From NCBI RefSeq assembly GCF_000423865.1, contig NZ_AUIU01000015.1:62001-126000 (forward strand): DNA of 64,000 nt, written 5' to 3'. Under the pieces are notes generated by a model, which was not told the DNA's origin, searched no databases, and was given only the letters and a program-made list of their open reading frames with translations. Shown here in pieces: positions 16,056 to 64,000 of this stretch. Both the position numbers and the translations under genes were made by a program. Origin of the DNA: Thermodesulfovibrio thiophilus DSM 17215. Lineage in GTDB: Bacteria > Nitrospirota > Thermodesulfovibrionia > Thermodesulfovibrionales > Thermodesulfovibrionaceae. Positions within the stretch are counted from its first letter, which is position 1. Every line of letters starts with the position of its first letter.

Positions 16056-16280
16056 TTAAGCGCCTTGGCGTTTTTCTCCAAGTTCTATGTAACTTCCACC
16101 GAAGTATGTATAAATTAAGTCTCCCGCGTCAATGAGTTCTCTGATTGCTTCTTTTATCTGAGCATCAGCTAATCCCTGCTGCCTGAAATGTTTAATAATA
16201 TCATTTTGTTTGTATTTCTTTTTACCTGCGGATTCTTTTATAAGATTATAAATCTGTTTTTTAAGCTCCTCTTTGTCCAT
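16056..16280 (-). CDS. dsrD: DsrD, activator of dissimilatory sulfite reductase
   Basis: A 74-residue DsrD: small winged-helix protein (IYNLIKESAGKKKYKQNDIIKHF ... IKEAIRELIDAGDLIYTYFGGSYIEL). DsrD has been reported to bind DsrAB and stimulate sulfite reduction. The gene marks sulfite-reducing, rather than sulfur-oxidising, dsr loci, and its place after dsrB is canonical. AGGAG precedes the ATG. It is separated from dsrB by a strong hairpin that may set its expression relative to dsrAB. Confidence 0.94.
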   Translation of the reverse strand: MDKEELKKQIYNLIKESAGKKKYKQNDIIKHFRQQGLADAQIKEAIRELIDAGDLIYTYFGGSYIELGEKRQGA

Positions 16281-16348: not shown

Positions 16349-17449
16349 TTATTTAACCCATTTAAACTGTGTTGTAGTTCTGAATGTTTCTCTTGCAATT
16401 GTCCAGTCATCAATATGCTGGAATGTAAATGGCAATCCTGTTACAGCAAAGAATTTCTCCCACCCAATTCTCTCTATCCATTCACCAACTCTTTCATGCT
16501 TCCTAGCACCTGCAATATAGGCATCAAGAATTATCTTTGTTGCCTTGACAACTTCTGGCCATCTTGGTGGATTATTTGGTAAATATGGAATAGCAAGTTT
16601 AGAAAATTTTGGATGACTTCTAAGGTTACCAACCTTTCCACCCACCACTATTGCAACTCCGTCATTCTCTGGGTCAGCAATTTCCAATGCAGGGCATACT
16701 GAAAAGCAGTTACCACAGTACATACATTTCTCAGGATTAATTTTAACTGATTTTTTTGCTGGATCAGGTGTTATTGCTGCTGTTGGGCAGGCAGCCATTG
16801 TAGTTGGAAGCTCACAGACGTTTTTAAAAGTATCATGGTCTATTCTTGGAAGCTTTCTGTGAATTCCAACAAAAGCTATATCTGAGCAGTGAACTGCACC
16901 ACACATATTTGTACAGCATGCAACAGCAAGTCTTACTTTATTTGGTGTTTCTTTTGTTGTAAAGTAATCAGCAAGTTCATCCATCAAAGATTTAACCAAT
17001 CCAGAAGCATCAACTGCTGCAGAATGACAGTGAACCCATCCCTGAGTATGGACAATATTGCTTATTCTTGAACCAATTCCACCTATCATGTATTTTTTAG
17101 CTTTAAGTTCATCAATTAGAGGCTGAACTTTACTTTCATCAGAAACAAGAAATTCTATATTATTTCTTGTCGTAAATCTGAAATATCCACCACAGTACTT
17201 CTCAGCAATATCTGCAATCTCTCTTAATGTAACCGTGCTTAGAATCCTTGGAGATGCAACTCTTACTGTCCAGATTTTATCTCCAGAATTTGCTATATGA
17301 ACCATTAAGCCAGGGCTTAATATTTCATGCGTTTTCCAGTCACCATAGTTTTTCTGAATTACCGGTGGTAAAAAATTCTTATAATGTGGACATCCTATAT
17401 CTGTTTTTCTTTGTTTTACATCAACTACATCAGGAATTACATAAGGCAT
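16349..17449 (-). CDS. dsrB: Dissimilatory sulfite reductase beta subunit
   Basis: A 366-residue DsrB. It has the siroheme/[4Fe-4S] ligand motif ACCTNMCGAVHCSDIAFVG near residue 185 and a ferredoxin insert (CMYCGNCFSVCPAL) with an additional CPTAA. With DsrA it forms the cytoplasmic alpha2-beta2 enzyme that reduces sulfite onto DsrC. AAAAGGAGG precedes the ATG and it lies 24 bases after dsrA. Nothing in the sequence suggests a defect. Confidence 0.97.
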   Translation of the reverse strand: MPYVIPDVVDVKQRKTDIGCPHYKNFLPPVIQKNYGDWKTHEILSPGLMVHIANSGDKIWTVRVASPRILSTVTLREIADIAEKYCGGYFRFTTRNNIEFLVSDESKVQPLIDELKAKKYMIGGIGSRISNIVHTQGWVHCHSAAVDASGLVKSLMDELADYFTTKETPNKVRLAVACCTNMCGAVHCSDIAFVGIHRKLPRIDHDTFKNVCELPTTMAACPTAAITPDPAKKSVKINPEKCMYCGNCFSVCPALEIADPENDGVAIVVGGKVGNLRSHPKFSKLAIPYLPNNPPRWPEVVKATKIILDAYIAGARKHERVGEWIERIGWEKFFAVTGLPFTFQHIDDWTIARETFRTTTQFKWVK

Positions 17450-17473: not shown

Positions 17474-18682
17474 TTATTTTATATAAGTTTCCCATGGCTT
17501 CTTGGATAGATCTTCTTCTGTCCAGAACCAGAATGGATCTCTTCTTGGTTCTTTAACTATCTCAGGTGTTGGCTCAAGTCCGCATACTTCAAGGAATTCT
17601 CTCATTCCACGGCGAATTATAAGTTCTCCAATTCTTTCTCTGTTCTTTCCATATTCATTCCACCAATCCCACATTTTTCTTGTCAGGTCTTTCAATTCAT
17701 CATAAGGAGGCTCCATTTTCATAAATGGAACTATTACCCATGATAGTGTAGCGCCTATAACAAAAGGTGCTTTTGAACCAATAAGTATAGTCGCACCTTT
17801 CTCGCCATTTGGTCTTAATGCATGAGGCATTCTGGTTATGCAGTGCATACAACGTAGGCAGTCTGAATTATTTATTTTAAGGCCATTTTCATTATAACTT
17901 ATACACTGTCCAGGGCACATATTTACTATTTCTTCCTGAATGTTCATGCCTTTTTTAGCATAGTCTTTTACTGCATCCTGATCTATCTCAATTGTTCCTC
18001 TCCATGTTCCAATAACAGAACAGTCTGCACGGGCTATTGAAGCATTACAATCAACAGGACAACCAACTATTTTAAATTTAAATTTATATGGAAATTGAGG
18101 TCTGTGAAGCTCGTCCTGAAATTCCTGAGTTAACTCATATGTAATATCAAGAGTATCAATCATTGACCATTCACATCTTGCCGGGCCAAGACAACAGCTT
18201 GGAGTTCTCATTGCAGAACCTGAACCGCCAAGATCAAACCCATTAATGCTTAAAACTGTGGCAATAGGTTCAAGATTTTCAGTTACTGTTCCCAATAAAA
18301 CCATATCACCTGTTGAACCATGGAAGTTTGTCAGACCGCTTCCATATTTGTCCCATAGATCGCATATAAATCTGATTGTCTCAGAAGTATAAAATAATCC
18401 TGATGGCTGATTTACACGAACTGTGTGAAAGTGAGCAACTCCTGGAAACTCATCTGCTAATTGTGAGTATCTTCCAATAACTCCTCCACCGTATCCTCTG
18501 ACACCAACAATTCCTCCATGCTTCCAGTAGGTTACTTTGTCTCTAAAACTTTTTTCTAACTGACCAAGTTCATCTGCAGCCATTGAATTTTTAGCAGCTG
18601 CTTTTTTGATTTCAGTGACGAAACTCGGGAAAGGACCCTTTTCAAGCTCATCCAATAAAGGTGTTTCATACTTCTTCGTCAT
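17474..18682 (-). CDS. dsrA: Dissimilatory sulfite reductase alpha subunit
   Basis: A 402-residue DsrA. The siroheme/[4Fe-4S] ligands are CCLGPARC (about residues 163-170) and CPVDC (about 208-212). The ferredoxin domain follows (CPGQC and CLRCMHC with a later proline). The reductive, DsrD-containing locus points to sulfite reduction rather than oxidation. It is first in dsrA-dsrB-dsrD, with AGGAGG before the ATG and a 22-base predicted leader. It is divergent from smc. Confidence 0.98.
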   Translation of the reverse strand: MTKKYETPLLDELEKGPFPSFVTEIKKAAAKNSMAADELGQLEKSFRDKVTYWKHGGIVGVRGYGGGVIGRYSQLADEFPGVAHFHTVRVNQPSGLFYTSETIRFICDLWDKYGSGLTNFHGSTGDMVLLGTVTENLEPIATVLSINGFDLGGSGSAMRTPSCCLGPARCEWSMIDTLDITYELTQEFQDELHRPQFPYKFKFKIVGCPVDCNASIARADCSVIGTWRGTIEIDQDAVKDYAKKGMNIQEEIVNMCPGQCISYNENGLKINNSDCLRCMHCITRMPHALRPNGEKGATILIGSKAPFVIGATLSWVIVPFMKMEPPYDELKDLTRKMWDWWNEYGKNRERIGELIIRRGMREFLEVCGLEPTPEIVKEPRRDPFWFWTEEDLSKKPWETYIK

Positions 18683-18828: not shown

Positions 18829-21800
18829 ATGCAGATAAGATGGATCGAGCTTAACGGCTTTAAATCTTTTCCTGAAAGAACGAAAATAGAGATACATGAA
18901 GGAATAACCTGCTTTGTAGGACCAAATGGAGCGGGTAAAAGCAATATTGTTGATGCCTTCAGATGGATTCTTGGAGAGCATAATCCCAGAACCCTTAGAG
19001 GAGAAAAGATGGAAGAAGTAATTTTTCAGGGTTCAGCGTCAAAAAGAGAAAAAGGTATAGCTGAAGTGAGCATTCTTTTGGATACTCAAAAGAAGTCAGA
19101 AAATGGGAATGAACCTGAAAAAGAACAAATCGAAATAAAGAGAAGATTTTATAGAACAGGGGAATCATATTTTATTATTAATGAAAAACATTCTCGTCTT
19201 AAAGATATAAAAGAAATTTTTGTTTCTGAAGGAGTTGATATAAGGACATATGCAATAATTGATCAGATAAAAATAAATGAACTTCTTACAAGACCTGCTC
19301 AGAGAAAGGCTCTTCTTGAAGAGTGTGCTGGAATTTCGATATATAAATTAAAAAAGACAGAAGCTGAGACAAAGCTACAATCGTCGAAAGAGAACTTGCA
19401 GAGGCTTGAAGACATTATCGGAGAAATCAGAAAACAGCTTTCTTTGCTTGAAAGGCAGGCAAAAAAAGCTGAAAAGTATAAGAAAATATCAGGAGAGTTG
19501 AAAAACTTAGAGCTAAGAGCTTCAAAAAAAGAAACCCTCTGCTTTGTTGATGAATTAAATAATTTCAATGCTGAAATTGAAAGCCTTGAAATGAAACATG
19601 CACAACTTAAAGATAAAATTGAAAAAATTATAAGAAGTATCAGTCAGCAAAAAAATCAGATATCAGTAATGGAAATCTCCATCCAGGATGTTGACAGACA
19701 GATAAGGCAATTTGAAGTTGAAAAGGCGAAATTAGAAAAAGAAATCGCTCTTTGTTCCATGGAGCTACAAAATAAAAGAGAGCAGATTGTAAGGCTGACA
19801 GAAGAAAACTCCACATTGAGTATTGAAATAGAAAAAATACAACAGCAACTTAATGATTCTATAGCTCTTTGTAGTGAAATAGAGGGAAGCATAACTGTAT
19901 TTCAAAAAGAAATAATTGATAAGGAACAAACAATTTTAGAGTCTCAGAAAGAATTAGAAAAAGTTGAGATAGAGTTAGAAAAAGATAGAAAAAATCTTTT
20001 CAATCTTTCTACTGAACTTGTAAATAAAAAAAACCACTATCAGTCAATAAAAAAATCCTTTGAAAATGCACAGAATAGAACTAATATTCTCAAACAAAAA
20101 ATTAAAGAAACAAAACTAAAAGTTATATCCTTTGAAAAAGAACTTAAAGCGAGGAATGAAAAAATTCAGAGTCTTAACATAAATTTTCAAACAGAAACTT
20201 CAGAAATGGACAAACTAAAGCAAGAGATAATAGGTTTAGAAAAGGAATTGGAAGAAAAAGCACAGTTGCTTATTGAGAAAAAGCAGTTTGAAGCTGTTAT
20301 AAATGGCAAAATACAGGCACTTGAGTCAGAAATATGGGAAGAGGACAGAACATGTAAACTTTTTTTTGAATGTATAGATGTAACTCCTGATATGGAGGAA
20401 TTAATTGAGAGTTTTTTTGATGAAAAACTCAGAGCAATAGTAGTTGATAATATTGATGAAATCAAAGATACAGGAAATAAAAAAATTTTTTTTCTGAAAA
20501 ATATTTCTCAGGGTACTGTCAGCTCTAATGATTTTATGCTGACAGAAAGACCATTAAAGTATCTGAAGGAATTTGTAAAAATCAAGGAAAATGGAATAAG
20601 CAAAAATTTTTTCGATAATGTTTTGATTGTTGAAGACCTTAAAGAGGCTATACAGCTTAAAAAATTTTTACCGCATGCTTCTTTTATTACAATGAACGGT
20701 GAAGTGCTTTTTGCAGAAGGGTTTATTAAAACAGGCAAAGGAGAAAGTATTCTTGTAAAAAAAAGAATGCTTGAAGAACTAAATAGAGAAAAATTAGATA
20801 TATTCTATCAAATTGAAAGCATCGGAAATGATATTGAAAAAATTAAGATTAAAAAACAGGAACTCATAAAACAACTTGAAAACAAAAGAGAAAAAATTTC
20901 GCAAATCAGGACAGAAATTATCCATACAGAAGCCAGATACAGAAATTGTCTTAATGAGATAGAATCAACAAAAAAGAAAATCACATACATGGAAAACGAA
21001 GAAAAAGCTTTAAATAATGAGATTGAGCAGAATAAAGAATTAATAACAAAGACTCAGTCAGAAATTGAGTATATATCATATTCTATTGCTGATGTCGAAG
21101 AAAAAATTGAAAAATTGAAAAATCTTCAGGCGGAGACATCCAACATTCATAATGCAATAAAAGAAGAGTTGTCACAGAAGAGAGTGAGTATGTCCACAAT
21201 AAAAGAGAGACTCAATGCCAAAAAAAGTGAAATAGACAGACTTAATGAAGAGGTAAAAAAAAATTCTAATACAAAAAAAAGGAATCAAAATGAGATTGAA
21301 CAAAACACTAAAAGAATTAGTCAAATTGAAGTAGAAATAAAAGAAAAAAGCAGCCAAATTGCAACTGTTTCTGAACAAATACAAAGGCTAACAGAACAAA
21401 AGGCAACTCTTCTGACAGAGTTTAACAATAATAAAAATTCTCTCAATCAGCTTGATAAGGATTATCAGAAGTTGAACCAGGAATTACAGAGTCTTACAAC
21501 AATAACAGGTGAAAAGAAAGCTATTGTGGGAGAGACAAAATTGAAACTTGAAAACCTCTGGAATGAGATTTATAACCGTTACGGGATTGATATTCTTAAG
21601 GAAGATATTGAACCAGCAGAAGATCTTCAAGCAATCAAACAAAAAATTACTCATCTTGCGCTTCAACTTAAAGAAATAGGACCTGTAGATGTTGAAATTT
21701 TGAGAGAGTATGAAGAAGTAAAAGAAAGATATGATTTTTTAATTATCCAGCAAAAAGATATCATGACATCAATTGAGGAGCTTGAGGAAGCAATAAAGAA

Positions 21801-22287
21801 GATTAATTCACTTACAAGAAAAACCCTGAGACAAACATTCAGTTTGCTCAAAGAGAAATTTAATAGCCTGTTTAGTGAACTTTTTGGTGGCGGAAAAGCA
21901 GACCTGGTTCTTACTGATGAAAACAATATTCTTGAGTCAGAGATTGAGATACAGGTTCAACTGCCTGGCAAAAAAACCAATAATATAAATCTTATTTCAG
22001 GTGGAGAGAAAACTCTTACAGCACTGGCTTTTATATTTGCCTGTCTTTCAATTCGTCCTTCTCCAGTATGCATTCTCGATGAAATAGATTCACCACTTGA
22101 TGACCCAAACACTTTGAGATGCCGGAATATGATAAAAGCATTGAGCAATAAAACTCAGTTTCTGGTTATTACTCATAATAAACTCATGATGGAACTGGCA
22201 GATTACATATATGGAGTTACGATGCAGGAGGAAGGGGTATCAACTGTGATTTCTCTTGGATTACGTGAAGCAGAGGTATATTTGTGA
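18829..22287 (+). CDS. smc: Chromosome segregation protein SMC
   Basis: An 1152-residue bacterial SMC. Walker A is GPNGAGKSN at residues 31-39; two very long coiled coils flank a hinge domain (about residues 500-650); the ABC signature LISGGEKTL is near 1055 and Walker B CILDEIDSPLDD near 1081. It condenses and aligns replicated chromosome arms, loaded by ParB. parAB lie only 1.3 kb downstream on the other strand. It overlaps the next gene by GTGA. No ribosome binding site precedes the ATG. Confidence 0.96.
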   Translation: MQIRWIELNGFKSFPERTKIEIHEGITCFVGPNGAGKSNIVDAFRWILGEHNPRTLRGEKMEEVIFQGSASKREKGIAEVSILLDTQKKSENGNEPEKEQIEIKRRFYRTGESYFIINEKHSRLKDIKEIFVSEGVDIRTYAIIDQIKINELLTRPAQRKALLEECAGISIYKLKKTEAETKLQSSKENLQRLEDIIGEIRKQLSLLERQAKKAEKYKKISGELKNLELRASKKETLCFVDELNNFNAEIESLEMKHAQLKDKIEKIIRSISQQKNQISVMEISIQDVDRQIRQFEVEKAKLEKEIALCSMELQNKREQIVRLTEENSTLSIEIEKIQQQLNDSIALCSEIEGSITVFQKEIIDKEQTILESQKELEKVEIELEKDRKNLFNLSTELVNKKNHYQSIKKSFENAQNRTNILKQKIKETKLKVISFEKELKARNEKIQSLNINFQTETSEMDKLKQEIIGLEKELEEKAQLLIEKKQFEAVINGKIQALESEIWEEDRTCKLFFECIDVTPDMEELIESFFDEKLRAIVVDNIDEIKDTGNKKIFFLKNISQGTVSSNDFMLTERPLKYLKEFVKIKENGISKNFFDNVLIVEDLKEAIQLKKFLPHASFITMNGEVLFAEGFIKTGKGESILVKKRMLEELNREKLDIFYQIESIGNDIEKIKIKKQELIKQLENKREKISQIRTEIIHTEARYRNCLNEIESTKKKITYMENEEKALNNEIEQNKELITKTQSEIEYISYSIADVEEKIEKLKNLQAETSNIHNAIKEELSQKRVSMSTIKERLNAKKSEIDRLNEEVKKNSNTKKRNQNEIEQNTKRISQIEVEIKEKSSQIATVSEQIQRLTEQKATLLTEFNNNKNSLNQLDKDYQKLNQELQSLTTITGEKKAIVGETKLKLENLWNEIYNRYGIDILKEDIEPAEDLQAIKQKITHLALQLKEIGPVDVEILREYEEVKERYDFLIIQQKDIMTSIEELEEAIKKINSLTRKTLRQTFSLLKEKFNSLFSELFGGGKADLVLTDENNILESEIEIQVQLPGKKTNNINLISGGEKTLTALAFIFACLSIRPSPVCILDEIDSPLDDPNTLRCRNMIKALSNKTQFLVITHNKLMMELADYIYGVTMQEEGVSTVISLGLREAEVYL

Positions 22288-23642
22288 AAGATTTGAATTT
22301 AATTAATGGTATTGATATTTCAGATGAAAAAGAAGATTTGGTCTGTTACAGCTATGATGCTTCATATGGAAAGGGCACAATTCCAGAAGTTGTTGCCTGG
22401 CCTAAAAATACAGAAGAAATTGTCAGAATTGTAAAATGGGCAATAAACAGGGGTTTAAAAATTGTTCCAAGAGGTGCTGGAACAGGTATGGCAGGAGGAA
22501 CTATTCCTGTTAATTCAAGAAGCATTGTTATCAGTCTTGAAAGAATGAACAATGTAGTTGATATAAATACTCGAAACCTTATTGCAACTGTTGAGCCCGG
22601 AGTGATAAACGGAGATCTCCAGAAGGAACTCTTAATTCATGAACTTTTTTATCCACCTGACCCTGCATCCCTTGAGTACTGCACAATTGGTGGAAATGTT
22701 TCAACAAATGCAGGTGGTCCACGAGCTATAAAATATGGTGTTACAAGAAACTATGTAATGGAGCTCGAGGTTATCCTTTCAAACGGCAATGTGCTTAGTT
22801 TAGGTGGAAAAACTGTTAAGAGGGTTGTAGGATATGAAATAAAAGAGCTTTTTATTGGTTCAGAGGGAACACTTGGCATAATTTCAAAGGTAAGTCTCAG
22901 AGTTCTGCCACAACCTGAAGAGGTCATCACGCTTCTTATAAGTTTTAAAAATCTTTTGGATGCAGGAGAGTTTATTGCAAAAACTATCGGAACAGGAATT
23001 ATCCCAAGAACTCTTGAGTTCCTCGACAGTTTATGTCTTCGGATGATTGAAGAAAATAGAGAATTCGGGTTACCAGCAGATGTGGAGGCACTACTTCTTG
23101 TTGAAGTTGATGGAGAACTCACTTCAATTAAAAGGCAGGCTGAGAAAATAGTTGATATAGCAAGAAAATTTAGAGGAGAAACTCAGATTGCAACAGACTA
23201 CTATTCAAAGGAAAACTTATGGCATGCAAGACGAAGTATTTCTCCATGCATTTTAAAGATGAAAGATAAAGAAAAAATCAACATTGATATTACTGTTCCC
23301 ATTGATAATCTTCCCAGAATGCTTTTAAGTATTAAAGAACTTTCTCAAAATTCTGGAATTCCGATTATTTCTTTTGGCCATGCAGGAGATGGCAATATTC
23401 ATGTAAATATTTTGGTAACCAAAGGTGATGAGGAATATCGGCAGAAAGGCTTTGAGATTGCAAAAAAAATATTTGAGCTAACAGTTGGTTTTGAAGGAGC
23501 TATTTCAGGAGAACATGGCATTGGGATAACAAAAAAGCCATATATTGAAATACAGTTAACAAGACAGCATCTTGAACTTATGAAAGCAATCAAAAGAGTA
23601 TTTGATCCAAAGGAAGTTATGAATCCAGGAAAGATTTTTTGA
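22284..23642 (+). CDS. FAD-linked oxidase, GlcD/D-lactate dehydrogenase family
   Basis: A 452-residue flavoprotein of the glycolate oxidase GlcD / D-2-hydroxyacid dehydrogenase family. It has an N-terminal FAD-binding domain (VPRGAGTGMAGGTIP, EYCTIGGNVSTNAGGPRAIKYGVT) and the C-terminal substrate domain (FGHAGDGNIHVNI, EGAISGEHGIGITK). The substrate cannot be set from sequence; D-lactate or glycolate are the usual ones. No glcE/glcF or lactate permease lies nearby. It starts with GTG inside the smc stop, and its end overlaps convergent parB by 26 bases. Confidence 0.88.
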   Translation: MKDLNLINGIDISDEKEDLVCYSYDASYGKGTIPEVVAWPKNTEEIVRIVKWAINRGLKIVPRGAGTGMAGGTIPVNSRSIVISLERMNNVVDINTRNLIATVEPGVINGDLQKELLIHELFYPPDPASLEYCTIGGNVSTNAGGPRAIKYGVTRNYVMELEVILSNGNVLSLGGKTVKRVVGYEIKELFIGSEGTLGIISKVSLRVLPQPEEVITLLISFKNLLDAGEFIAKTIGTGIIPRTLEFLDSLCLRMIEENREFGLPADVEALLLVEVDGELTSIKRQAEKIVDIARKFRGETQIATDYYSKENLWHARRSISPCILKMKDKEKINIDITVPIDNLPRMLLSIKELSQNSGIPIISFGHAGDGNIHVNILVTKGDEEYRQKGFEIAKKIFELTVGFEGAISGEHGIGITKKPYIEIQLTRQHLELMKAIKRVFDPKEVMNPGKIF

Positions 23643-60287: not shown

Positions 60288-61661
60288 ATGTATCCCAGAA
60301 TACTTATAGCAGGTATCAGAGGTGGTGCAGGAAAAACAACTGTAACTTTAGCCATTCTTTCACTTTTGAGGGAAAAAGGATTAAATGTTATTGCTTTTAA
60401 AAAAGGTCCTGACTACATAGATAGCGGCTGGCTTTCTCTTTTTTCAGGAAATCCATGCTATAACCTTGATACATATATGATTCCTCCAAATAAAGTGATT
60501 CGCTCATTTATTGAGAGATCAGAAGGAGATATCTCTGTTATTGAGGGAAACAGAGGGCTTTATGACGGAATGGATATAGAAGGTACAGTGGCAACTTCAG
60601 AACTTGCAAAGCTACTTAAATGTCCTGTAATTTTAGTTGTTGACTGCACGAAAATTACACGCTCTGTTGCTGCGATTATTCAGGGATTTGTAAATTTTGA
60701 CAGAGATGTCTATCTGAAGGGAGTTGTCCTTAATCAGGTTGCAAATGCAAGACATGAAAAAATTATCAAAGAATCAATAAAAAGATACTGCAATATTGAG
60801 ATTGTTGGATCAATTCCGCGATTCAAAGATATAAAAATGCCTGAAAGGCACATGGGCCTTACTCCTCACCAGGAACAGGAGATGAAAAAAGAAACTGAGG
60901 ATTTTATATATAGAGTAGCTGATTATCTAGATATAGAAAAAATTTTAAAAATAGCAAGAGACGCTCCTCCAATATCATATATTTTTAATGATACAAAACC
61001 ATATATTAATGGTGAAGGAGTAAAAATTGGTGTTATAAGAGACAGAGTATTTCAGTTTTACTATGAAGAGAATCTGGAAGAGCTAAAAAAATACGGGGCA
61101 GAAATTGTTTTAATTAACTCTCTTGAAAATAAAGCCTTGCCTGAAATCGATGCTTTATATATTGGAGGAGGTTTTCCTGAAACCAATATTAAGCCTTTAT
61201 CTGAAAATGTTGACTTAATTAAAAATATAAAGGAAAATGCGCAGAAGGGACTACCAGTATATGCTGAATGTGGTGGACTAATGTATCTTTGCAAGAGTTT
61301 AATCACTCATGAAGGAGAATTTTCAATGGCAGGCATTTTTCCTTTTAAATTAAAGATGTTTAAAAAACCACAGGCACATGGATATGTTATGGCTAAAGTC
61401 AACGAGGATAGTCCCTTTTATGAAAAGGATATCGAAATAAAAGGCCATGAATTTCATTACTCAAGGGTAATAGACTATGATGAATTACCACATATGTGCT
61501 TTACAATGTTAAGAGGAGAAGGGATAGTCGAAAATCAGGATGGAGCCTGTTTTAAAAACACTCTTGGCACTTATGTTCATGTTCATGCAATTGGATGTGA
61601 GGAGTGGATAAAGGGAGTTTTAAAGATAGCAAAAAATTACAGGGAGATTAAAAATGCGTAA
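60288..61661 (+). CDS. CbiA/CobB-type a,c-diamide synthase, DsrN-like
   Basis: A 457-residue glutamine-dependent amidotransferase. The N-terminal ATPase has the P-loop GIRGGAGKTTVTLAIL and FKKGPDYIDSGWLS; the C-terminal class I glutaminase has YAECGGLMYL (nucleophile cysteine) and a histidine in HVHAIGCEEW. CbiA amidates cobyrinate; the related DsrN is thought to amidate siroheme for DsrAB. No cobalamin gene is here, while dsrC and dsrM follow, so a DsrN role is favoured (inference). There is no ribosome binding site. Confidence 0.88.
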   Translation: MYPRILIAGIRGGAGKTTVTLAILSLLREKGLNVIAFKKGPDYIDSGWLSLFSGNPCYNLDTYMIPPNKVIRSFIERSEGDISVIEGNRGLYDGMDIEGTVATSELAKLLKCPVILVVDCTKITRSVAAIIQGFVNFDRDVYLKGVVLNQVANARHEKIIKESIKRYCNIEIVGSIPRFKDIKMPERHMGLTPHQEQEMKKETEDFIYRVADYLDIEKILKIARDAPPISYIFNDTKPYINGEGVKIGVIRDRVFQFYYEENLEELKKYGAEIVLINSLENKALPEIDALYIGGGFPETNIKPLSENVDLIKNIKENAQKGLPVYAECGGLMYLCKSLITHEGEFSMAGIFPFKLKMFKKPQAHGYVMAKVNEDSPFYEKDIEIKGHEFHYSRVIDYDELPHMCFTMLRGEGIVENQDGACFKNTLGTYVHVHAIGCEEWIKGVLKIAKNYREIKNA

Positions 61662-62625
61662 AGAACTACCAACATGTCTTTTCTGTGGCAGGATAATTAT
61701 GCCTCCTCAGCAGACAATGACAGAAATAGGAGAAGTTATATCTGGAAAATGCGAGTGCGGAGCAATTTATGTCTGCGAACCAACAGGACATAATCAGGGA
61801 GATGCTTTAGTTGATGCTATGCTACTTGCCTCTCCAGAGGGGATAGAAAATATAGAATTAGGAGTAAACTTTGAGATCAGAGAAAGAGACTACGATTATA
61901 GAACTCATCAGTATGTTTATATAAAAAGCTGGCCTTTCAACGGGAGGCTTTTTTTCATAAAAGCTCTGACAGGAGGTGAAAGAATAGTTGTGGAGGATAA
62001 TATCAAAATAACAAAAAAGGATTTTATTGATCTCATTGAAAATAGAGATTTTGAAAAAATAGAAAAATTAGCACTTCAGAATAAAAATTCTATTGGCTGG
62101 TTGATCTCTCTTTCGTATGATAAAGAAAATCTTATATCCTGGAAAGCAATAGAGGCAATGGGACATGTTGCAAAAGCATACATTGAGGCAGGAGACATAG
62201 AAACCCTGAGAAACACTATAAGAAAACTCCTCTGGTCGATGACTGATGAATCTGGTGCTATAGGATGGCGTTCGGCAGAATTAATAGGCGAAATTATATA
62301 TGCCAATCCCTCGCTTTTTGAAGACATAATACCTATTTTATGGTCTCAAAGGGAAGAAGAGAGTTTTATTGAGAGCGTCCTCAGAGGTATTTTAAAATTA
62401 TCCAAAAAAGTTAATCTGTCCAATTATATAAAAATTAACTGTCAGGAACTTGAAAATCTTTCCAGACATAAAAATGATGATATAAAAGGATTATCTACTT
62501 TGCTAACGAAACGCACCACATGTGATTATGAGTTGCCTGAAGAAATCAAACAAATAACCATTTCCATGTATGATAACGGGAAAACGATAAAACTAAAAGT
62601 TAATGACGCTGAAAAATTTTTATAA
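61654..62625 (+). CDS. Unknown zinc-ribbon / HEAT-like protein, candidate Dsr accessory
   Basis: A 323-residue protein that I cannot name. The N-terminus has a metal-site pattern C8, C11, C33, C35, C41 (CLFCGR ... KCECGAIYVC) followed by EPTGHNQGDALVDAML. Residues about 110-290 are helical and HEAT-like (ISWKAIEAMGHVAKAYIEAGD, AIGWRSAELIGEIIYANP, SVLRGILKLSKK). No signal peptide, so cytoplasmic. It overlaps the cbiA/DsrN-like gene by 8 bases and precedes dsrC by 144, so a role in sulfite-reductase cofactor or partner handling is plausible but unproven. Confidence 0.75.
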   Translation: MRKELPTCLFCGRIIMPPQQTMTEIGEVISGKCECGAIYVCEPTGHNQGDALVDAMLLASPEGIENIELGVNFEIRERDYDYRTHQYVYIKSWPFNGRLFFIKALTGGERIVVEDNIKITKKDFIDLIENRDFEKIEKLALQNKNSIGWLISLSYDKENLISWKAIEAMGHVAKAYIEAGDIETLRNTIRKLLWSMTDESGAIGWRSAELIGEIIYANPSLFEDIIPILWSQREEESFIESVLRGILKLSKKVNLSNYIKINCQELENLSRHKNDDIKGLSTLLTKRTTCDYELPEEIKQITISMYDNGKTIKLKVNDAEKFL

Positions 62626-62769: not shown

Positions 62770-63105
62770 ATGCCGTACATTGAATTTAAGGGAAAGCAGA
62801 TTGAGATTGATGAGGATGGATATCTTAAAAACCTTGATGATTGGACACCTGAGTTATCTGAGTACATGGCTCAACAGGATGGGCTTACGCTAACAGAGCA
62901 ACATTGGGAGGTTATTAACTTTTTGAGAGATTACTATCAGAAATATCAGATTGCTCCAATGATTAAAATACTTGTCAAAGAAATGGCTAAAATGTTCGGA
63001 CCTGAGAAAGGAAACACAAAATATCTTTATGGTCTTTTCCCAGATGGTCCTGCAAAACAAGCATGTAGATACGCAGGGCTTCCAAAACCAACAGGATGCG
63101 TATAA
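62770..63105 (+). CDS. dsrC: DsrC sulfur-carrier protein
   Basis: A 111-residue DsrC/TusE-family protein. The flexible C-terminal arm has both redox cysteines: C99 and the penultimate C110 (CRYAGLPKPTGCV). They form the trisulfide with sulfite-derived sulfur from DsrAB and are re-reduced by DsrMKJOP. The body is canonical (DWTPELSEYMAQQDGLTLTEQHWEVINFLRDYY). The AAGGAGG site is strong and two promoters precede it. A terminator follows. Confidence 0.98.
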   Translation: MPYIEFKGKQIEIDEDGYLKNLDDWTPELSEYMAQQDGLTLTEQHWEVINFLRDYYQKYQIAPMIKILVKEMAKMFGPEKGNTKYLYGLFPDGPAKQACRYAGLPKPTGCV

Positions 63106-63223: not shown

Positions 63224-63748
63224 TTGGAAATAAATAGCGTCTTTTCAAAGAAAAGGCAAGCTATCATCGACAAAGCTTTTAATCTGACTATCTCAACTTA
63301 TCCAGAAGGAGGGATCTCCTTTTTAAAGGGAAAGCATGAACAATTTACCAACCCTGTTGGCTATAATATTTATCAAAGTATTCAAAAGATAGTTGATAAC
63401 CTGATTGCTGATGAATCTTTAGAAAGTTTTGTTTCCTCTATTGAAGAAATTATACGTATAAGAGCAGTTCAGGATTTTACTCCTTCTCAGGCTGTGGGAT
63501 TCATTTTTTTGCTTAAAAAAGCAATATATGATGAATTGTACAACGATGTGGATTTGTTTCAGCTTATGGGTTATCTTTCCAGGATAGACTCTCTTGCTCT
63601 TATAGCTTTTGATATCTTTATGAAATATAGAGAGAAAATCTATGATCTTAAATCTAAGGAATTAATTGATAGAACATGGTGGGTTCTTAAAAAGTGGAAT
63701 ATTGTTTCAGAAATTAACGATGAAAAAGATGAAACTGTGCAAAAATAA
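63224..63748 (+). CDS. RsbRD N-terminal-domain protein
   Basis: A 174-residue all-helical protein resembling the RsbRD N-terminal domain (IRAVQDFTPSQAVGFIFLLKKAIYDEL is its hallmark), without the STAS output domain of RsbR. Stand-alone copies occur next to dsrM in sulfate reducers; their role is unknown. It starts with TTG, preceded by AGGAGA. It is 28 bases upstream of dsrM, so probably in the same operon. Confidence 0.82.
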   Translation: MEINSVFSKKRQAIIDKAFNLTISTYPEGGISFLKGKHEQFTNPVGYNIYQSIQKIVDNLIADESLESFVSSIEEIIRIRAVQDFTPSQAVGFIFLLKKAIYDELYNDVDLFQLMGYLSRIDSLALIAFDIFMKYREKIYDLKSKELIDRTWWVLKKWNIVSEINDEKDETVQK

Positions 63749-63776: not shown

Positions 63777-64000
63777 ATGGGTCTAATATCAGCCTTTTTA
63801 ATTGTGATGGGGTTAATAATTTTTGCTTATATTGGTAGTAGTATTTCAGGGTTGCAACCTCTTTTTGCTGTAGTATTCCCCTATGTTGCATTAATAATAT
63901 TTATTGTAGGTTTTGTTGTAAGGATTATTAAATGGGGAAAATCTCCGGTTCCATACAGAATACCGACAACAGCTGGACAACAGTTTTCTCTTCCATGGAT
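63777..64000 (+). CDS. dsrM: DsrM, membrane subunit of DsrMKJOP, partial
   Basis: Only the first 74 residues are in the window. Two hydrophobic segments (about 3-20 and 27-48) are followed by KWGKSPVPYRIPTTAGQQFSLPW, which matches the DsrM/HmeC N-terminus. DsrM is the cytochrome b-like quinone-side subunit that passes electrons to DsrK and DsrC. AGAGAGG lies upstream of the ATG. dsrKJOP would be expected beyond the right edge. Confidence 0.88.
   Translation, partial: MGLISAFLIVMGLIIFAYIGSSISGLQPLFAVVFPYVALIIFIVGFVVRIIKWGKSPVPYRIPTTAGQQFSLPW

Follow-up and report, generated by a model that had tools for sequence, protein, structure and literature searches.

A four-cysteine HEAT-repeat protein encoded between dsrN and dsrC is a probable accessory of the reductive sulfite reductase system

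Gene X of Thermodesulfovibrio thiophilus DSM 17215 (61654..62625, + strand, 323 aa) encodes a four-Cys module fused to a HEAT module, and since both modules are nearly confined to DsrAB-bearing genomes, its product is probably an undescribed helper of the sulfite reductase system. That X is a Dsr-specific accessory protein we regard as very likely. All coordinates refer to the window, the whole stretch of 64,000 nucleotides analysed here. DsrAB-dependent sulfite reduction is a major driver of the anoxic sulfur cycle, but the literature searched neither explains the route of amidated siroheme into DsrAB nor describes a cofactor-insertion factor for this enzyme. X offers a concrete candidate, as its two modules track dsrA in three phyla, appear from sequence comparison to have been fused at least three times, and are often placed between dsrN and dsrC. 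Full-text searches combining dsr with HEAT, PBS lyase or TPR turned up neither X nor either module in a Dsr role, and the identity, architecture and distribution of X appear to be new.

Gene X overlaps dsrN within a dsr gene cluster

An earlier note on this DNA had placed gene X and a CbiA/DsrN-like gene, overlapping by 8 bases, in front of dsrC and dsrM, and this held exactly. Both open reading frames are real; gene X begins with the ATG at 61654 and the stop of the dsrN-like gene ends at 61661 (ORF coordinates), giving an overlap of 8 bases (61654..61661, +), which is identical in all 7 of the 7 other members of the genus where it was measurable. A ribosome binding site, AGGGAG (61641..61646, +), could be read from the sequence within the 3' end of dsrN. 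Codon comparison places gene X under purifying selection, with a dN/dS of about 0.1 (about 0.09-0.11 against five congeners, dS being saturated). Matches to Pfam and NCBIfam gave the order dsrN-X-dsrC-dsrT-dsrM, comprising dsrN (60288..61661, +), X, dsrC (62770..63105, +; PF04358 and TIGR03342), dsrT, which encodes an RsbRD_N-domain protein (63224..63748, +; PF14361) positioned beside dsrM as in PMC10504309, and dsrM (63777..64000, +; NF038037), cut by the window end. A dsrKJOP-like run, recognised by position and length only (L056), follows dsrM beyond the window end. The dsrABD genes lie in the same window, 42 kb from X, and consist of dsrA (17474..18682, -; TIGR02064 at 536 bits, over the cut-off, and PF01077), dsrB (16349..17449, -; PF01077/PF03460 with a ferredoxin insert) and, after dsrB, a dsrD of 74 aa (16056..16280, -), which has a weak winged-helix-like Pfam match and a position conserved in relatives. 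SMC-like and FAD-linked oxidase genes, divergent from dsrA, occupy 18829-23642 and recur by dsrAB in other Thermodesulfovibrionales.

The gene at 60288 encodes a CbiA/CobB-family amidotransferase of 457 aa in which the CbiA NTP-binding and GATase_3 domains are both present, and it was assigned as dsrN from these domains and its dsr neighbours. DsrN is the likely siroheme amidase and, in published trees, stands apart from bacterial CbiA/CobB, after the CfbB-bearing clade (PMC10504309). The window gene scored 456.8 for the Ni-sirohydrochlorin amidase CfbB against 439.6 for PRK01077 CobB, whereas the cobalamin-operon CbiA of the same genome scored 339.1 and 428.8, respectively; this relative preference of the window gene for CfbB is as expected for DsrN. 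The gene for the second CbiA lies on a different contig and shares its operon with CobT-, CobS-, CobQ-, CbiB-, CbiC/X- and CbiM-like genes. A search of the window for the non-amidotransferase genes of that operon gave no match, in agreement with the earlier observation that cobalamin genes are absent near X. A link of X to cobalamin synthesis, which had been named as evidence against a Dsr role, was likewise not found, the true CbiA being in the separate cobalamin operon. DsrN, a homolog of CbiA/CobB/CfbB, is the partner whose gene overlaps X, but X itself is no amidotransferase and is without any catalytic family match.

Protein X consists of a conserved four-Cys module and a HEAT module

The HEAT module (aa 120-323; 62011..62622, +) makes up the C-terminal two thirds of X and matched the equivalog domain model NF045662 of NCBIfam (DVU0298 family) with 106.2 bits over model positions 4-205/213, the curated cut-off being 75 bits. 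The AlphaFold2 model of X (mean pLDDT 91.2) predicts a small domain rich in beta structure and a helical solenoid, joined by a linker of low confidence at residues 109-113. Residues 110-323 of the model could be superposed on HEAT/ARM solenoids (Z up to 13.6; 174 residues; 3.0 A). Scores of this size are usual among repeat proteins, and the arrangement, being common, is uninformative on the function of X. The NF045662 score and the predicted alpha-solenoid fold bear out the HEAT-like body proposed for X from the letters alone. The accompanying view that X belongs to no named family was correct in part, as the HEAT part belongs to the DVU0298 family, whereas the four-Cys part has no Pfam or NCBIfam match. 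The NF045662 model spans the HEAT part only, and X differs in carrying the extra four-Cys module, which is named in no library. The DVU0298 family has been a name without an attached function, and gains a firm link to a pathway here. The sole paper naming DVU0298 gives it as a CO dehydrogenase gene, a poor fit to a HEAT protein and probably a locus-tag slip. HEAT proteins of the phycobilisome-lyase type (CpcE/CpcF-like) act on tetrapyrroles. The PBS-lyase HEAT-repeat family is absent from the Pfam matches of X and its relatives, the latter matching mainly HEAT_EZ and HEAT_2.

The N-terminal module, termed ZnR (aa 1-105; 61654..61968, +), is encoded by a separate gene in relatives. Four cysteines, C8, C11, C33 and C35, are kept without exception in the alignment of distinct relatives (86 of 86 rows), while the fifth cysteine, C41, is a cysteine in 37/86 and is not conserved; the five-cysteine pattern described earlier is therefore present in X, but just its first four positions are invariant. 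The two CxxC knuckles of a classical zinc ribbon were not seen, the 86 distinct rows having C8-x-x-C11 and C33-x-C35, and with C-x-C as its second pair the module is called a 'zinc ribbon' as a working label only. The module probably binds a metal, either Zn or Fe. No Pfam or NCBIfam family matched the first ~105 residues of X. Modelled alone, the module reached a pLDDT of 85.8, and its matches to PDB folds were weak (Foldseek E 0.42 at best; highest Z 3.9, for 75 residues at 4.1 A), so that Foldseek and VIA gave no confident fold match in the PDB, a result that does not imply a novel fold; a PDB sequence search returned nothing usable. This previously unnamed domain could serve as an annotation marker of reductive-type Dsr. 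DsrD and DsrT resemble X in being small accessory proteins linked to reductive-type dsr (PMC10504309), but they differ in family and domain make-up, and no relation was found.

Both modules follow dsrA across three phyla

The HEAT (NF045662) and dsrA (TIGR02064) profiles were searched in 445 genomes, comprising 148 Nitrospirota, 148 Desulfobacterota and 149 Bacillota-group genomes (phylum names of the latter two samples are from the titles of centre loci). Both genes were found in 133 genomes, HEAT only in 6, dsrA only in 31 and neither in 275. Thus, dsrA was present in 133/139 HEAT-bearing genomes, and HEAT in 6/281 genomes without dsrA (Fisher 4e-74, a p-value that ignores shared ancestry, the weight lying in the agreement of three phyla). 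Two of the six HEAT-only exceptions are incomplete genomes (85% and 74%). The ZnR module was detected in 94 genomes, 89 of which carry dsrA. The earlier note had asked for such a profile comparison and had named occurrence mainly in genomes without dsrAB as evidence against its proposal; the distribution proved to be the opposite. None of 14 well-known control genomes had a HEAT-family match, and of 20 genomes behind HEAT loci, Chloroflexi and Actinobacteria MAGs among them, dsrA was present in 18. In one of the other two, from Riflebacteria, HEAT, ZnR, dsrN, dsrC and dsrMKJ share one contig.

HEAT was missing from 31/164 dsrA genomes, several of which have dsrD and dsrN, and ZnR from 40/74 dsrA genomes of Desulfobacterota, so neither module is universally required. 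HEAT without ZnR occurred in 31 Desulfobacterota genomes, indicating that the HEAT protein is able to act without ZnR. Most of the dsrA-positive, HEAT-negative genomes belong to two DsrA clades (the label changes 5 times on the DsrA tree, against a shuffled mean of 16); the loss therefore tracks the enzyme lineage. In one Nitrospirota family (f18; G043, G052, G060, G069, G076, G082), dsrA and HEAT were found and ZnR was undetected.

The modules are fused repeatedly and keep dsr partners when split

Among genomes of the same taxonomic order as the window, the two modules are joined either N-C or, in reverse, C-N (L040, L054), or else they are encoded separately, side by side or far apart. In a quick tree of HEAT sequences, the fused proteins occupy three places, namely a Nitrospirota N-C clade, the C-N pair and a clade of Desulfobacterota and Desulfotomaculia. 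On this sequence comparison, the modules of X have been fused at least three times, once in reverse order, and that they were joined more than once, and in either order, is a good indication that ZnR and HEAT work together. Some Desulfobacterota have a ZnR-HEAT-TPR architecture, with TPR added behind. Triple fusions of this kind, of about 580 aa, were seen a few kb from dsrA (L160:8362-10104, L161:8191-9933, L162:10110-11849, L163:8859-10577).

The gene order dsrA-dsrB-dsrD-dsrN-HEAT-ZnR-dsrC-dsrT-dsrMKJOP recurs in Nitrospirota. Split modules often keep dsr partners, ZnR with dsrC-dsrMKJOP and HEAT with dsrN/dsrAB: among 10 genomes with the modules far apart, ZnR precedes dsrC-dsrM in 6 (L029, L031, L034, L038, L041, L043) and HEAT lies beside dsrN/dsrAB in 6 (L030, L037, L042, L044, L048, L049). 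HEAT loci were collected with a 6-row alignment, because one of 17 rows offered no sufficiently conserved stretch to search with; among the 80 HEAT loci so obtained, which are biased towards the patterns of that alignment, a dsr gene lies within 3 kb of HEAT in 32 and dsrN itself in 28. All four ZnR genes of the Bacillota sample are within 5 kb of dsrA, and in two Desulfotomaculia loci (L117, L131) a stretch of about 10 kb holds dsrAB and dsrMK together with both a ZnR-HEAT gene and a lone HEAT gene.

Possible roles of X in sulfite reduction

The role in sulfite reduction suggested by the earlier note is strongly supported by the co-occurrence with dsrA, the synteny with dsrN, dsrC and dsrAB, and the separate cobalamin CbiA. 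The specific roles that it offered as a guess, namely amidation or delivery of siroheme or assembly of DsrAB/DsrC, are candidates. Our tentative best explanation is that X is a dedicated accessory of reductive Dsr, built from two once-separate dsr-linked proteins, and most likely a scaffold for maturation or hand-over. For action in maturation as such, the case is suggestive, and slightly short of even. Metal binding, the client proteins, and maturation instead of turnover or repair are points that we infer. In the mechanism that we find most likely, the HEAT solenoid would be a docking scaffold holding the client of the DsrN step, which may be apo-DsrAB or else DsrN loaded with its siroheme product, and the four-Cys module would touch DsrC/DsrMK or stabilise the open enzyme; as the outcome, the siroheme amide would be inserted and DsrAB brought to DsrC. 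In its most specific form, in which the four-Cys and HEAT modules would be a dedicated maturation machine handing siroheme amide on from DsrN to DsrAB with a coupling to DsrC, the proposal is doubtful. If true, such a machine would be a cofactor-insertion factor for an ancient enzyme.

X may instead act like DsrD, a proposed activator, in that it would bind DsrC, DsrMK or DsrAB during catalysis and tune the flow of electrons or sulfur, with no part in assembly. X lies directly before dsrC in the window and the separate ZnR genes listed above precede dsrC-dsrT-dsrM and not dsrN, as this reading would have it; the tight 8-base coupling of X is, however, to dsrN, and separate HEAT genes accompany dsrN/dsrAB. 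We consider a role in turnover unlikely.

A second alternative comes from the 80 HEAT loci, in 25 of which HEAT has a flavodiiron neighbour no more than 3 kb away, never together with dsr genes. These flavodiiron-linked HEAT genes form two separate clades, in Nitrospirota and in Desulfobacteraceae, and the neighbour matches the NO-reductase flavorubredoxin family. Stand-alone HEAT genes just downstream of a flavodiiron gene were noted at L060-L067, L071, L074-L077, L124, L126, L128, L129 and L135, often with rubrerythrin or desulfoferrodoxin nearby. Nearly all tested genomes with flavodiiron-linked HEAT still have dsrA, and two Nitrospirota genomes among them retain ZnR before dsrC (L031/L032, L033/L034). 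The HEAT family may thus protect siroheme, Fe-S and DsrC thiols in the sulfite reduction apparatus from oxygen or nitric oxide, or repair them, and the proximity in two clades keeps such a role a live rival, one that would account for flavodiiron siting in these clades and dsr siting in others. Against it, no flavodiiron protein is near the window gene or most of the Nitrospirota fusions, which belong to the dsrN-dsrC operon, and the distribution follows dsrA, whereas oxygen defence genes would be expected in many dsrA-less anaerobes too. A protective role seems to us quite unlikely as the explanation of X.

It is improbable that X is a transcriptional or signalling regulator of dsr genes, with the four-Cys module as sensor and the HEAT module as interaction platform; the four invariant cysteines, the small beta-rich module and the RsbRD-like nature of the adjoining DsrT would suit such a regulator, but no DNA-binding or signalling domain is among the Pfam/NCBIfam matches of X, and 31 Desulfobacterota genomes have HEAT without ZnR. 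Mere hitch-hiking, with X unrelated to Dsr and sharing its operon and the sulfate-reducer lifestyle by chance, is very improbable, for although shared ancestry inflates the co-occurrence and some lineages are without the genes, the same pattern is seen in three phyla, the operon links recur with both modules in differing orders, and the losses follow DsrA clades.

Other genes of dsr neighbourhoods

Unnamed syntenic conserved proteins, '1-4', were marked in acidobacterial dsr clusters by Hausmann et al. 2018 (PMC6018796), so that unnamed companions of dsr had been noticed before; these proteins likewise travel with dsr and could include X, the text of that paper not giving their identities. Three candidates were set aside. 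A direct DsrN-HEAT fusion of 691 aa (L037) was downgraded, as it arises in one MAG by one codon change, TAG to CAG, the stop being kept in two congeners; a 429-aa frame (L045) was judged an artefact of wrong-frame extension in GC-rich DNA; and a conserved ORF, 'L019_239', was likewise judged an artefact, probably of the strand opposite dsrC. In two genomes of a HEAT-lacking DsrA clade, a 298-aa gene, carbon-nitrogen hydrolase-like by eye, lies between dsrN and dsrC (L189:4601-5497, L197:11277-12173). Near dsrABD and the ZnR-HEAT gene of Desulfobacterota and Desulfotomaculia, a TPR protein and a CxxCxxCC (PF03692) protein recur (L166:6700-9085, L167:6825-9183, L117:14398-15647, L121:4469-6498), accompanied in most by a ~380-aa protein without a family match.
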